NCBI GenBank assembly: GCA_014584395.1
Contig: JACTMY010000010.1
Span: forward strand, 186,001 to 250,000
Length of the DNA: 64,000 nt
Reading direction: 5' to 3'
Origin: Planctomycetota bacterium
Lineage (GTDB): Bacteria; Planctomycetota; Planctomycetia; Gemmatales; HRBIN36
Shown: one piece after another, positions 20,812 to 26,704 of the stretch
How the letters are laid out: each line of letters starts with the position of its first letter
Position numbering within the stretch: the first letter of the stretch is position 1
Translations under genes and position numbers: made by a program
The notes under the pieces: generated by a model
What the model saw: only the letters and a program-made list of their open reading frames with translations
The model's database searches: none
Told to the model about the DNA's origin: nothing

Positions 20812-21186
20812 GAGTGGTCCCCTATCTTCCATGACCTGCCCCATTTGAATCGAGCATTCCCCCTCGAGGGCAGTCGAGCAAGGAGTGGTATAAACCAGGT
20901 CGTCATTTCAAGCTAGATCAATTTACCCTTCCCGTTGGCGGGGGCGTTTTTCCTTCGGACGGTGTGACAACACGATCAAATCGATAAGCTATGTCCCCTA
21001 AAACCCCGCACTGGCCCGGCTCGTTGCGCCAGGACCTGCCCTTGACAGACCAAGTGGTCGATTCTATCGTCCGCCGCTCGTACCGACGGACCCCATTTTG
21101 CAGGATCTCTTGCCACCGCAACTGAATCGAGAGATCAAGGAAGAACCCCGGGGATGCGCCGGCCGAACAGGGTGGGAGTGGAAATC
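20812..21186. other. Non-coding gap of about 375 bases between divergent genes
   Basis: The gap separates lpxA from the FlgI/HEAT lipoprotein gene. It contains the promoter candidate listed at 21042-21070. The short minus ORF at 20918-21121 has no family resemblance or ribosome binding site. Nothing else definite is seen. Confidence 0.45.
21042..21070 (+). promoter_or_regulatory. Sigma-70-type promoter with palindromic spacer
   Basis: TTGACA and TATCGT are separated by exactly 17 bases, about 115 bases ahead of the FlgI/HEAT lipoprotein start. The spacer begins with GACCAAGTGGTC, an inverted repeat (GACCA/TGGTC) that could be a regulator site. This is pattern matching only. Confidence 0.45.
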
Positions 21187-22923
21187 ATGCAAGGCGAACG
21201 TGGACTCGGTCTCTTTTTGCTATTGATCATGATGGGCTGCCAGCCTTGGGGATGGACATCCCGCAGTGAAAAGGCGGCGGTTCAGCCTCCGCCCTTCCCT
21301 GAATTGAAAACGGTCGGCACTTACACTTCCTTTTTCGGCATCGAGCCGATCCGCGTGCATGGCTTGGGCATCGTCCATAACCTGCCCGGCACGGGAAGCA
21401 ATCCCCCCCCTGGCCCCGCGCGCCAACAGGCCATCCACCGACTCAAGCAGATGGGCGTCAGCGCACCTGACGAAGCCCTTGCTTCCCAGGAAATAGCGCT
21501 GGTTCAGGTATCGGCTTCGATCCAACCCGGAGCATACCGCGACGATCGAATCGACGTTGAACTGGAGGCCATGGGCGACGACAAAAACGTGGACCTCCGG
21601 GGAGGAACCTTATTGACCAGCGATCTGTTCGAATATGCTGACGCCAACCAAATTATGGGCAAGTCCAATCAAGGACAACGCATGCTGGCCCATAAAAAAC
21701 TCGTCAAGGCCGAAGGCGTCATCATGCCGGATATGAGCGACAAAGCGTCTGACCCCAAGCGCCGCGGGGTGGTCTGGAGCGGCGGCCGGGTGCTCGAAAA
21801 CATCCCCTTTGACCTGATCATGAATAAAGAGCATCAAGAAACGCGTTTGGCCATGCTCATCGCTACGACGATCAACCGGCGTTTTCACGGCAAGGTTCAA
21901 GATCACGCCATGCGCGGCATGGCCGATGCACAGACGAAAATGGTCATCCGGCTGCGCGTCCCCGAGAATTATCGCCTCAACTGGGGCCGCTACCTGCTCG
22001 TCATTCGCCAGGTTCCCATCGTCGAATCGCCCCAGGTGCTGCGCGAACTTCGCCGCAAGTATGCGGAAGATCTGCTCAATCCTGATTTCAGCGTCGTGGC
22101 GGCCCTGCAACTGGAAGCTTTGGGACAAGAATGCGCCGGCGAACTTAAGCGAGCCTTGAAACATCATCATCCCAAGGTGCGTTTCTGCGCGGCCGAAGCC
22201 CTGGCGTATCTTGGCGACCCGAGCAGCGCCGAAACCTTGGCCGAAACCGCCAAGGCGTTTCCGGATTATCGTGCTTACGCCCTGACGGCGCTGGCCTCCA
22301 TGGATGAAGCCATTGCCCAGATCAAGCTTCGCGAGTTGATGACCGAAAACGAGCCAGAGTTGCGTTACGGCGCCTTTCGGGCGTTGCAAGTCATGAACGC
22401 GCGCGATCGCACGATCCCTTGCGAAGTGATCAACCAGCGGTTCAATCTGTACCGCGTCTACAATGACAGTCCGCCGATGGTGCACCTGTGCACGCGGTCT
22501 TACCCCGACATCGTCGTGTTTGGCAGTGATCCGCAATTGCAGCCGCCCTTTAGCCTGACGGCTGGACCCGACTTCGTTCTCACGGCCCGCGAAGGGGAAG
22601 ATAAGTGTTTCATTAGCCGCATCAGTCTGCAAGGGGCCCATTCTCAGGACGTCGCCTCGCTCAAATTAACGGAGATCATTCGGAAAATGGGAGCCATGGG
22701 CGCGCATTACGGCGACGTCGTGGAACTGCTGCAGCAGGCGAACCGACTGCAAAACTTGAGCTGCCCGGTGGCCATCGATGCCCTTCCGAAAGCCCCCTCA
22801 TTGGAGACCTTGGCCCAGCAGGACCCCATGAATCCCGGAGCCGCGCCGACCACGCCCGCCAATAAATCCCTGTTCGAGGGATGGAGCTTTACACCGAGTC
22901 TTTTCGCCAACAAACGCGAGTGA
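21187..22923 (+). CDS. Lipoprotein with FlgI-like fold interrupted by HEAT repeats
   Basis: A 578-residue predicted lipoprotein: signal GLGLFLLLIMMGC with the lipidated Cys at 18. Residues about 45-290 resemble flagellar P-ring protein FlgI: VHGLGIVHNLPGTGSN, then LVQVSASIQPGAYRDDRIDV and LRGGTLLTSDL, then IRLRVPENYRLNW. About 300-410 are HEAT-like repeats (FCAAEALAYLGDPSSAETLAE, LRYGAFRALQVMNARD). The end, IIRKMGAMGAHYGDVVELLQQA, again resembles the FlgI C-terminus ([20 protein letters not shown]). So a P-ring-like fold seems to hold an inserted repeat domain. No flagellar genes are near; function unknown. GGGAG lies before the ATG at 21187. A good promoter lies upstream. Confidence 0.75.
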   Translation: MQGERGLGLFLLLIMMGCQPWGWTSRSEKAAVQPPPFPELKTVGTYTSFFGIEPIRVHGLGIVHNLPGTGSNPPPGPARQQAIHRLKQMGVSAPDEALASQEIALVQVSASIQPGAYRDDRIDVELEAMGDDKNVDLRGGTLLTSDLFEYADANQIMGKSNQGQRMLAHKKLVKAEGVIMPDMSDKASDPKRRGVVWSGGRVLENIPFDLIMNKEHQETRLAMLIATTINRRFHGKVQDHAMRGMADAQTKMVIRLRVPENYRLNWGRYLLVIRQVPIVESPQVLRELRRKYAEDLLNPDFSVVAALQLEALGQECAGELKRALKHHHPKVRFCAAEALAYLGDPSSAETLAETAKAFPDYRAYALTALASMDEAIAQIKLRELMTENEPELRYGAFRALQVMNARDRTIPCEVINQRFNLYRVYNDSPPMVHLCTRSYPDIVVFGSDPQLQPPFSLTAGPDFVLTAREGEDKCFISRISLQGAHSQDVASLKLTEIIRKMGAMGAHYGDVVELLQQANRLQNLSCPVAIDALPKAPSLETLAQQDPMNPGAAPTTPANKSLFEGWSFTPSLFANKRE

Positions 22924-23026: not shown

Positions 23027-26000
23027 ATGCTCAAGCGACTGGAACTCCTGGGTTTCAAAAGTTTCGCGGATAAGACCGAGTTCACTTTCGGTTCCGGCAT
23101 CACGGCCATCGTCGGCCCCAATGGCAGCGGCAAAAGCAACGTCGTCGACGCCATTCGCTGGATCATGGGTGAACAAAGCGCCAAAAGTCTGCGCGGCGGT
23201 GAAATGACGGACGTCATTTTCAATGGATCGAGCACCCGTAAAAGCCTGGGACTGGCTGAAGTGACGCTCGTGTTGGACAACCGCCAGCGGCGACTCGCTT
23301 TCGAAAGCGATGAAGTACAGATCACTCGGAGGGTGTACCGCGATGGGCAAGGCGAGTATCTGATTAATAAGCAGCCCTCGCGCCTTAGGGATATCAAGGA
23401 CCTGTTTCTGGGCAGCGGCGCCGGTGCGGACGCCTATTGCATCATCGCTCAGGGCAAGGTCGACGCCCTGCTTCAGGCCTCCAACCACGAACGCCGCCAG
23501 GTCTTTGAGGAAGCCGCCGGAATCAGCCGCTTTCGAGCCAGAAAAATCGAATCGCAGCGCAAACTCGAACAAGTCGAACTGAATCTGCAGCGCGTGCGCG
23601 ACATCATGGAGGAACTGCGCCGTCAACTGCACGGGGTGCAGCTCCAAGCTTCCAAGGCGCGCAAGTACCAAGAATATCAAGGTTTGCTCCGCGATAAGCT
23701 GACCACGGTCAGTCTGCATGAATTCCATCGCTGGCACGTAGAGAAAAGCCAGGTCGAAGCCTCTTTGCAAGAACTGCGCGAGCAATTGGCCCAGCAACAG
23801 GAGCAAGCCGAGCGGCTGGAAGCCGCGCACCGCGAATTGGAACAACAATGGTCCGAAGCCGAGGAGCAGATTCGCCGTGCGGAAGCAGACTTGGCGTCCC
23901 TGCGCGAACGGCAAGCCGTGCTCGAAAATACACTGCGCCACGAACAAGCCCTGGTCGAACAGAAGCAGCAAGAAAGGCAGCGCGCCCAGGAGCGCCGCGA
24001 TGCCTTGGAATCGCTGCTTCAGGACCTGCGGCAACGCGTCCAAGCTTGCCAGGCGGAATGGGTGGAAGTGGAAACGCGCCGCTCAGCCTGCGAGCAAGCG
24101 GTGACCCTTCTGCAAGGCCAGCATGATGATCTGGCCCAGCGGCTCAAGCTGCTTCGCCGCCGGCATCAAGAGGACCAGGCCAAACTGCTCGAGGTCATGC
24201 GCGAGGCAGCTCGCTCACATAACGAATGGGTGAGCTTGAAGGCGCACGGTCAAAACCTGGAACAACATCGCCAGCGTTTGCATCAGAGGTTCGACCAAGC
24301 CAATCTCCACCTTAGCCAAATGGATCAGGAAGTTCGGGTCCTGGAGGACGCTGAGCGGGACACCCTGCGGCAGTGGGACCAGGCGCGCGCGCACCAAACA
24401 GCCATGGATCAGCAAGCGGAAGCCTTGCGGCAGCAGATCGACCAACTCCGCGAGGAACTCATGCAAGGTAAAGCCTTGCGCCATGGCCTGCTCAGCCAAG
24501 CACAGCTCTTGGAGGCCTTAGCACGCAACCACGAGGGATTGAATCCCCTGGCCGTGCACATTCTCGAACGGGCTGAGCAGTCGCCCGCTTTCCCTTGGAA
24601 TCAGGTCTACGGCGTCCTGGCGGATTGGCTGGAAGTGGTCCCTGAATACGCCAGTCTGATCGATCTGCTCTTGGCGGAAAAAACGCAGAGCATCCTGATC
24701 AAAGATCAGGCCACCTTGGAAGCCATCCTGCAAGCGTTGTCAGAGGATCTGACGGGCCGGGCTGATTTCATATTGCTCGACCACCTCGCGCCCCAACCTC
24801 CCTCGGCCAACGGAGAATGGACCCTTTCCTCGGCATCCACTTCATTGCCAGGCCTTCACTCCGCGGTCAGCGAGGCCACTCCTGGCTTGCAACCTGAGGA
24901 CGTGCCCGGGTGGATCGGCCCAATGGACCGATTGGTCGTTTGCCCGCGCCCTGATGCCGCGGGATTGGTGGAGTCGCTACTGAGCCGAACCTATCTGGTT
25001 CAGGATTTGGAAACGGCCCTGCTTATGTCGCATCAGATTCCCGAGGCACGGTGGGTCACCCCCTTGGGCGAATGCTGCGAAAAGGGCAGCCACGTCTGTC
25101 TAGGGCAAGCCAAAAGCTCCACGGGCATGTTGTCGCGAAAAAGCCAGTACCGCGACTTGCAGGAGCAAATGCAGCATCTGGACGAACGGCTGCAGCAGCA
25201 AGAACAGCATTTGAATCAACTTCAAGAACAAGCCAGCCGGCAAGCCGATCAGTGCACGCACAGCCAACAAAACGTCCAAGTCCTGGAAGAGCAGCTCGCC
25301 GACCTGCGCTCTCGGCTCGCCCAGCACCGCGAACGCAGCTCCGTGATGTCTCAGGAAGTGCATTGGGGTCGCAAGGAATTGCAGCAGCTCGAAGAGGAAT
25401 GGAATCAGGTCCAAAACCAATTGGAACAAGCCTTGGCCAAGGCGCAGTCGGCGGACGCCAGGGTCCAGGAACTGCAGCGGAGCCTGGAACAGGGCACCGA
25501 AGCCTCCGTGCAATACGAGCAACAGCTCCATCAACTCTATCAACAACTCACGCAAGCCAAAGTCGATGCCGCCACGGTGGATGAAAAGCGCGCCGCCGCC
25601 GCTGCTTTGCTCCAACAAGCCACCCAGCAAGAGCAGAATCTTCGCGAGGAATGGGATCGTTTGCTCCAGCAACAGCAAGCACATTCGGAACAGATCGTTC
25701 GCGGTCAACAAGCCTTGGCCGATGGGGCCGCCCAGCGTGAAAGCTTGCAGTCCCAATACGAGGCCGCTCAGGCCAGATTATTGGAATGGCAATCTCGCGG
25801 CGCGAAGTGGCGCGAGGACAGGCAGCGTCTGCTCGAAGCGTCCCAGCAATTTCGAAGCCGCTGGCAAGAACAACTCGATCAAAAACATCAACTCGAGCTG
25901 CGCTGCAATGACGCGGCCTTGAAGCAGGATCATCTTTGTTCCCGCATGCAAGAAGAATTGGAATGGGACCTGAGAGCGGCCCATGCGAATTATACGCCCC

Positions 26001-26704
26001 CAGAGGCGCCCTTGGACCTTGCCAGCATGCACGCGGACATGGCCGACCTCAAAAAGAAAATCCATCGCTTGGGCAGCATCAACCTCGACGCTTTACAGGA
26101 ACTGCATGAATTGGAAGCGCGTGCGGCCCATTTGCAAACGCAGCACGACGACTTGGTCCAGGCCAAGACCGCCTTGGATGAAATCTTAGAGAAGATCAAC
26201 GGCGACAGCCGGCGCTTGTTCATCAGCACGTTCGATGCGGTTCGGCAGCATTTTCAGGACCTCTTTCGCAAGCTGTTCGGCGGCGGCTTGGCGGATATCG
26301 TCCTCGAGAATCCCGAGGACGTGCTCGAATCCGGCATCGAGATCATCGCCCGCCCTCCAGGGAAAGAGGCGCGTCATTTGTCCCTTTTGAGCGGCGGCGA
26401 AAAAGCCCTGACCGCGGTGGCGCTCTTGCTCGCCATTTTTCGCAATAAACCTAGCCCTTTCTGCATCATGGATGAAGTGGACGCGGCTTTGGACGAAGCC
26501 AACGTGGGGCGGTTCGCCGCTGTGCTGCGCGAATTCCTCGATCTCTCGCAGTTCATCATCATCAGCCATTCCAAGAAGACCATGGCCGCCGCGGACGTGC
26601 TCTACGGCGTGACCATGCAAGAAGCGGGCGTGTCCAAGCGCATGGCCGTCCGCTTGGAAGAGGCAGCCACGCAGGCGGAACCTTCACCGGCCCTTGCCGC
26701 GTGA
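23027..26704 (+). CDS. smc: Chromosome segregation protein SMC
   Basis: SMC is the core ATPase of bacterial condensin. The 1225-residue protein has the N-terminal head MLKRLELLGFKSFADKTEF with Walker A GPNGSGKS (30-37), a long coiled coil rich in Gln, Glu, Leu and Arg, a hinge at about 520-690, a second coiled coil, and the C-terminal head with signature LSLLSGGEKALTAVALLLA and Walker B FCIMDEVDAALDEAN. The hinge includes a low-similarity stretch (LAPQPPSANGEWTLSSAST) that may be an insertion. Length is near the family norm (about 1150-1200). It starts about 100 bases after the FlgI/HEAT gene; ScpA and ScpB are not in the window. Confidence 0.96.
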   Translation: MLKRLELLGFKSFADKTEFTFGSGITAIVGPNGSGKSNVVDAIRWIMGEQSAKSLRGGEMTDVIFNGSSTRKSLGLAEVTLVLDNRQRRLAFESDEVQITRRVYRDGQGEYLINKQPSRLRDIKDLFLGSGAGADAYCIIAQGKVDALLQASNHERRQVFEEAAGISRFRARKIESQRKLEQVELNLQRVRDIMEELRRQLHGVQLQASKARKYQEYQGLLRDKLTTVSLHEFHRWHVEKSQVEASLQELREQLAQQQEQAERLEAAHRELEQQWSEAEEQIRRAEADLASLRERQAVLENTLRHEQALVEQKQQERQRAQERRDALESLLQDLRQRVQACQAEWVEVETRRSACEQAVTLLQGQHDDLAQRLKLLRRRHQEDQAKLLEVMREAARSHNEWVSLKAHGQNLEQHRQRLHQRFDQANLHLSQMDQEVRVLEDAERDTLRQWDQARAHQTAMDQQAEALRQQIDQLREELMQGKALRHGLLSQAQLLEALARNHEGLNPLAVHILERAEQSPAFPWNQVYGVLADWLEVVPEYASLIDLLLAEKTQSILIKDQATLEAILQALSEDLTGRADFILLDHLAPQPPSANGEWTLSSASTSLPGLHSAVSEATPGLQPEDVPGWIGPMDRLVVCPRPDAAGLVESLLSRTYLVQDLETALLMSHQIPEARWVTPLGECCEKGSHVCLGQAKSSTGMLSRKSQYRDLQEQMQHLDERLQQQEQHLNQLQEQASRQADQCTHSQQNVQVLEEQLADLRSRLAQHRERSSVMSQEVHWGRKELQQLEEEWNQVQNQLEQALAKAQSADARVQELQRSLEQGTEASVQYEQQLHQLYQQLTQAKVDAATVDEKRAAAAALLQQATQQEQNLREEWDRLLQQQQAHSEQIVRGQQALADGAAQRESLQSQYEAAQARLLEWQSRGAKWREDRQRLLEASQQFRSRWQEQLDQKHQLELRCNDAALKQDHLCSRMQEELEWDLRAAHANYTPPEAPLDLASMHADMADLKKKIHRLGSINLDALQELHELEARAAHLQTQHDDLVQAKTALDEILEKINGDSRRLFISTFDAVRQHFQDLFRKLFGGGLADIVLENPEDVLESGIEIIARPPGKEARHLSLLSGGEKALTAVALLLAIFRNKPSPFCIMDEVDAALDEANVGRFAAVLREFLDLSQFIIISHSKKTMAAADVLYGVTMQEAGVSKRMAVRLEEAATQAEPSPALAA

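Follow-up and report, generated by a model that had tools for sequence, protein, structure and literature searches.

A putative envelope lipoprotein of Planctomycetota that joins a non-flagellar FlgI fold to inserted HEAT repeats

Within the literature found, FlgI (PF02119; Salmonella structures 7bgl and 7cbl) is known only as a part of the flagellum. In the published structure of the flagellar P-ring, FlgI is made up of three domains, designated OR, IRU, and IRL, and a flexible loop of the IRL domain probably forms the density seen under the ring (PMC8298488). Residue roles in Salmonella FlgI were taken from the same study, in which I18, M46, L50, and M104 bind FlgH, while K95 faces the rod (PMC8298488). 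No description of a non-flagellar FlgI, of a planctomycete P-ring, or of a linkage of either to smc was found in the literature searched, and the main text of a paper on the essential genes of Planctopirus mentions neither flagella, nor the P-ring, nor smc.

The stretch of DNA analyzed here, which we refer to as the window, covers 64,000 nucleotides of contig JACTMY010000010.1 (positions 186,001 to 250,000) of assembly GCA_014584395.1, a genome from the order Gemmatales in the class Planctomycetia. An ORF on its forward strand (21187-22923) encodes a protein of 578 aa, with an in-frame ATG at 21154, upstream of the ORF, as an alternative start. A preliminary description, made from the sequence alone, presented this protein as a lipoprotein with a P-ring-like fold that is interrupted by HEAT repeats. 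The parts that we distinguish in the protein are listed in Table 1, along with the gene that follows it.

Table 1. Parts of the FlgI-HEAT protein and its downstream neighbour, in window coordinates.
Feature	Residues	Position	Strand	Basis
Signal peptide, with the lipobox ...LLLIMMGC (C18) at its end		21187..21240	+	Sequence; conservation of C18
Low-confidence linker	19-40	21241..21306	+	pLDDT <50 at residues 19-33
FlgI N-terminal part	41-285	21307..22041	+	Pfam; profile against 7bgl; hhalign
Inserted HEAT solenoid	286-404	22042..22398	+	HEAT_2, E 2.8e-10; helices in the model; conservation
Beta-rich part after the HEAT solenoid	405-475	22399..22611	+	Strands in the model; position between two FlgI-matching stretches
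C-terminal FlgI end	485-530	22639..22776	+	Alignment to the last FlgI residues
Variable C-terminal tail	531-578	22777..22920	+	Low conservation
smc, downstream neighbour		23027..26704	+	Pfam SMC_N and hinge

Similarity to FlgI was found at both ends of the protein. PF02119 matched residues 48-279 (72.2 bits, cut-off 25.3; E 4.7e-20), and the Salmonella P-ring chain 7bgl was matched by phmmer (E 6e-9). A profile built from an alignment of 44 relatives (A1) matched 7bgl in two colinear stretches: positions 38-279 of the profile aligned with FlgI 19-253 (i-E 1.2e-23), and positions 467-522 aligned with FlgI 309-364, which are the final residues of FlgI in this chain (conditional E 7.5e-8, i-E 0.013). 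When compared by hhalign to canonical planctomycete FlgI, the N-terminal part matched with an E-value of 2e-26 and the C-terminal end with 3.6e-5, the latter at the exact C-terminus of FlgI, and the HEAT part gave no match. The FlgI motifs that had been noted in the N-terminal half, and the likeness of the C-terminal end to that of FlgI, are thus both confirmed by profile comparison. The complete FlgI fold is present, up to and including the 2 helices and the last strand of its C-terminal end, and there is hardly any doubt that the protein is a homolog of FlgI. At the same time, NCBIfam subfamily/equivalog models of FlgI gave 61.1 bits of the 300 required and 35.8 of the 557 required. With scores this far under the cut-offs, the protein is a relative of FlgI, but not a standard FlgI; nor does it represent a new fold, since Pfam places the family in FlgI.

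The protein differs from FlgI in carrying a HEAT insert and a lipobox, and in lacking flagellar partners. HEAT repeats were indeed found between the FlgI-like ends, as first described: PF13646 (HEAT_2) scored 40.8 bits against a cut-off of 27.7, and the region is modeled as about 4 helix pairs. All 44 members of A1 matched both PF02119 and HEAT_2. The FlgI N-terminal part is the counterpart of the OR and IRU domains and the start of the IRL domain. Judging from the alignments and the predicted structure, the solenoid is inserted in this last FlgI domain, between its first and its later strands, although the exact strand is a matter of inference. We propose that the beta-rich part that follows is the remainder of the lower inner ring domain, with a putative strand-by-strand equivalence. 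The inserted repeats are of the same type as those of HEAT_2 repeat proteins and of the designed alphaRep proteins; unlike in these, the solenoid is embedded in an exported FlgI fold. Of all parts of the protein, it has the highest mean conservation, suggesting that it has a conserved partner, and we consider it reasonably probable that the HEAT part is what binds this partner, in line with the binding arm proposed in the preliminary description.

In the AlphaFold model for A1 (pLDDT 87.4, pTM 0.84), a helical solenoid is flanked on either side by beta-rich parts that resemble FlgI. A Foldseek search of the PDB with this model returned 4 P-ring chains on top (E 2e-14 to 4e-13), in alignments of about 500 columns that spanned the insert. 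The same order of elements was found in the model of a relative from outside the class (L215; pLDDT 87.7, pTM 0.83), which has roughly 22% identity to the window protein and again had the P-ring as its top Foldseek hits. The P-ring-like fold proposed earlier therefore stands as far as the closest structural match is concerned, but not at the level of rigid superposition, which was poor for both models (TM to target 0.38-0.41, rmsd 8-19 Å). Either the domains are arranged differently from those of a ring subunit, or their arrangement is ill-set in a model of a monomer.

The signal peptide ends in a lipobox, whose cysteine, C18, ranks with the best-conserved columns in the alignment of the 44 relatives. 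Most members in the class carry the lipobox, and in the few that have lost the cysteine, a hydrophobic N-terminus is retained; among the members examined from outside the class, nearly all have it. These features bear out the lipid anchor that had been suggested, and make it very likely that the protein is a periplasmic lipoprotein in this genome. By the same sequence features, FlgI-HEAT proteins are predicted to be exported, and to be lipid-anchored in most members. In one family (f95), 2 genomes (L075 and L076) encode a FlgI-HEAT protein without a lipobox, and smc does not adjoin the gene.

The PF02119 match could also be taken to mean that the protein is a divergent but functional flagellar P-ring of this organism. 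This we consider extremely improbable. The window protein is the single FlgI match in its own genome (87% complete), in which FlgH was not found, and neither FlgA nor FlhA was found above the cut-off, so that no flagellum was found in this genome, in keeping with the lack of flagellar genes first remarked on for the surroundings. One FlhA candidate (E 0.0024) fell below the cut-off and was judged spurious. A search with the window protein recovered relatives from 148 of the 149 class genomes sampled, and from 135 of the 136 that are of high quality. FlhA was present in 127 of the same 149 genomes and FlgH in 78; of the 22 genomes that lack FlhA, at least 21 must therefore carry a FlgI-HEAT protein. 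The protein is present in flagella-less genomes of the order, and flagellated genomes bear a separate, canonical FlgI besides it.

The residues that would contact the rest of the flagellum point in the same direction. Residues of the fold core (GTG, D85, L97, G99, and G100, the glycines being part of a shared LRGG motif) are kept in both the HEAT family and canonical FlgI. In the class, however, members of the HEAT family mostly have Glu, Asp, Arg, Ser, or Gln at the FlgH-binding positions I18, M46, L50, and M104, and Thr in place of the rod-facing K95, whereas canonical planctomycete FlgI has a largely hydrophobic pocket (with Gln common at M104) and usually a Lys at K95. Thus, the family has neither the hydrophobic FlgH pocket nor the rod-facing lysines of a flagellar P-ring, which is the pattern expected once the flagellar contacts have been lost. 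We are confident that the window protein is not the flagellar P-ring.

Phylogeny agrees with a long separate history. A tree built from the N-terminal part of FlgI placed the HEAT forms together, set off by a branch with a support of 96/93, and canonical FlgI, including that of Salmonella, in a group of its own (98/95). Members from the class and from outside it separated within the tree, as vertical descent predicts. FlgI-HEAT proteins are also present in several further families of the phylum, and the best 80 of 372 relatives, obtained from 84,980 species genomes, came from records titled as planctomycetes, with few exceptions; these were titled, for instance, uncultured bacterium or Bacteroidales. 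As far as searched, the FlgI-HEAT family is specific to Planctomycetota. Genes of the class type were also seen on contigs L123, L106, and L132, which bear the title Bacteroidales or Candidatus Kuenenia stuttgartiensis; these public records probably carry a wrong name or come from mixed bins.

With FlgI homology at both ends, a clade of its own, and a genome in which no flagellum was found, the repurposing from the P-ring that had been suggested is best read as an ancient, vertically inherited, non-flagellar paralog of FlgI. In it, a component of the flagellum has clearly been removed from its machine, with the fold kept, the contact sites lost, and a HEAT solenoid gained. The paralog is spread over much of the phylum and persists where flagella are gone; in such genomes, a Pfam match alone would mislabel it as flagellar.

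The start of smc lies 103 nt downstream of the window gene, and the genome has no other SMC, this gene containing its only SMC hinge. In 29 of 35 loci, the next gene downstream was smc, on the same strand, and no other position within 3 genes held a homology cluster larger than 4. In a larger, partly redundant set, smc adjoined in 83 of the 103 loci with room to judge. The linkage extends beyond the class, where it was found in 9 of 11 loci with gaps mostly below 160 nt, and is both old and specific. Neither this linkage nor the conservation across the class had been noted in the preliminary description. A cytoplasmic HEAT subunit of condensin that works with SMC was considered as a candidate for the protein and rejected, as members inside and outside the class alike retain the signal peptide and lipobox.

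This neighbourhood invites the reading that the protein and SMC cooperate in segregating chromosomes or in division by budding, with the protein serving, for instance, as an anchor in the envelope and its gene being co-transcribed with smc. HEAT proteins are condensin partners elsewhere, which would fit such a role. However, the signal peptide and lipobox put the protein outside the cytoplasm, where it could not contact SMC directly; the gaps in the class are often 150-450 nt, which is not a tight operon; and the adjacency is absent from Isosphaera-type loci and a few others. We therefore regard joint action with SMC as distinctly unlikely. Since an exported protein has no direct access to SMC, the linkage is most simply read as co-regulation. 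Planctomycete envelopes offer a different setting for a reused P-ring fold, namely the crateriform structures, pits that join the outer and inner membrane and bear fibres. The protein could form a periplasmic collar around the fibre or pore of these structures, which have been called enigmatic and described as unique to planctomycetes (PMC5394234). In favor of this, the gene is near-universal in the class. This is a correlation only, though, and relatives of the protein occur outside the class as well, while Phycisphaeraceae were reported to be without crateriform structures (PMC8882080), a possible conflict that falls short of proof. Taken together, a crateriform collar appears very unlikely. 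A further proposal is that the protein is a monomeric lipoprotein that forms no ring, in which the FlgI fold is merely a module for binding peptidoglycan or protein. The models do not recover the geometry of the P-ring and the known interface residues of the P-ring are not kept, both of which favor a monomer; retention of the entire FlgI fold, C-terminal end included, instead of a single module speaks against it. We see the monomer as a serious possibility, if short of probable.

On balance, we favor, with some reservation, a FlgI paralog that was cut loose from the flagellum and became anchored as a HEAT-bearing lipoprotein of the envelope, likely as a scaffold. Held in the periplasm by its FlgI part, the protein might be an oligomer or a ring, and its conserved HEAT part would dock the conserved partner, so that the overall role would most likely be that of an envelope scaffold. 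Counting against this explanation are the lack of an FlgA chaperone and of an L-ring partner in this genome, and the loss of the lipobox in a few members. Whether the scaffold closes into a ring, as first suggested, is doubtful: with a TM of about 0.4 and a large rmsd to the P-ring subunit, the geometry of the subunit need not support the same ring, which in the flagellar protein is 26-fold and lies in peptidoglycan. If a ring does exist, the position of the insert within IRL would place the HEAT parts on its lower face. In its most far-reaching form, the protein would make an ancient non-flagellar envelope ring with HEAT arms, near-universal in the sampled class and conceivably the collar of the crateriform pits, which we hold to be fairly unlikely. 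The gene nevertheless provides a concrete candidate for study of the unexplained planctomycete envelope.

Two further observations concern flagellar genes in the phylum. At least 49 of the 149 class genomes, mostly in one family (f95), contained an FlhA-type export gate without FlgH. This suggests either that their export apparatus has no L ring or that it belongs to a non-flagellar type III system. In addition, a third kind of FlgI, and another non-canonical paralog, was found in Planctomycetaceae (family f2; L090:8142-9959 and L089:9448-11337). In this FlgA-FlgI fusion, a single chain contains an N-terminal anchor, a ChapFlgA-like stretch (E 2.8e-4 in L089), and, downstream of it, the FlgI domain. 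It has no HEAT repeats, and its position in the tree is on the side of canonical FlgI.
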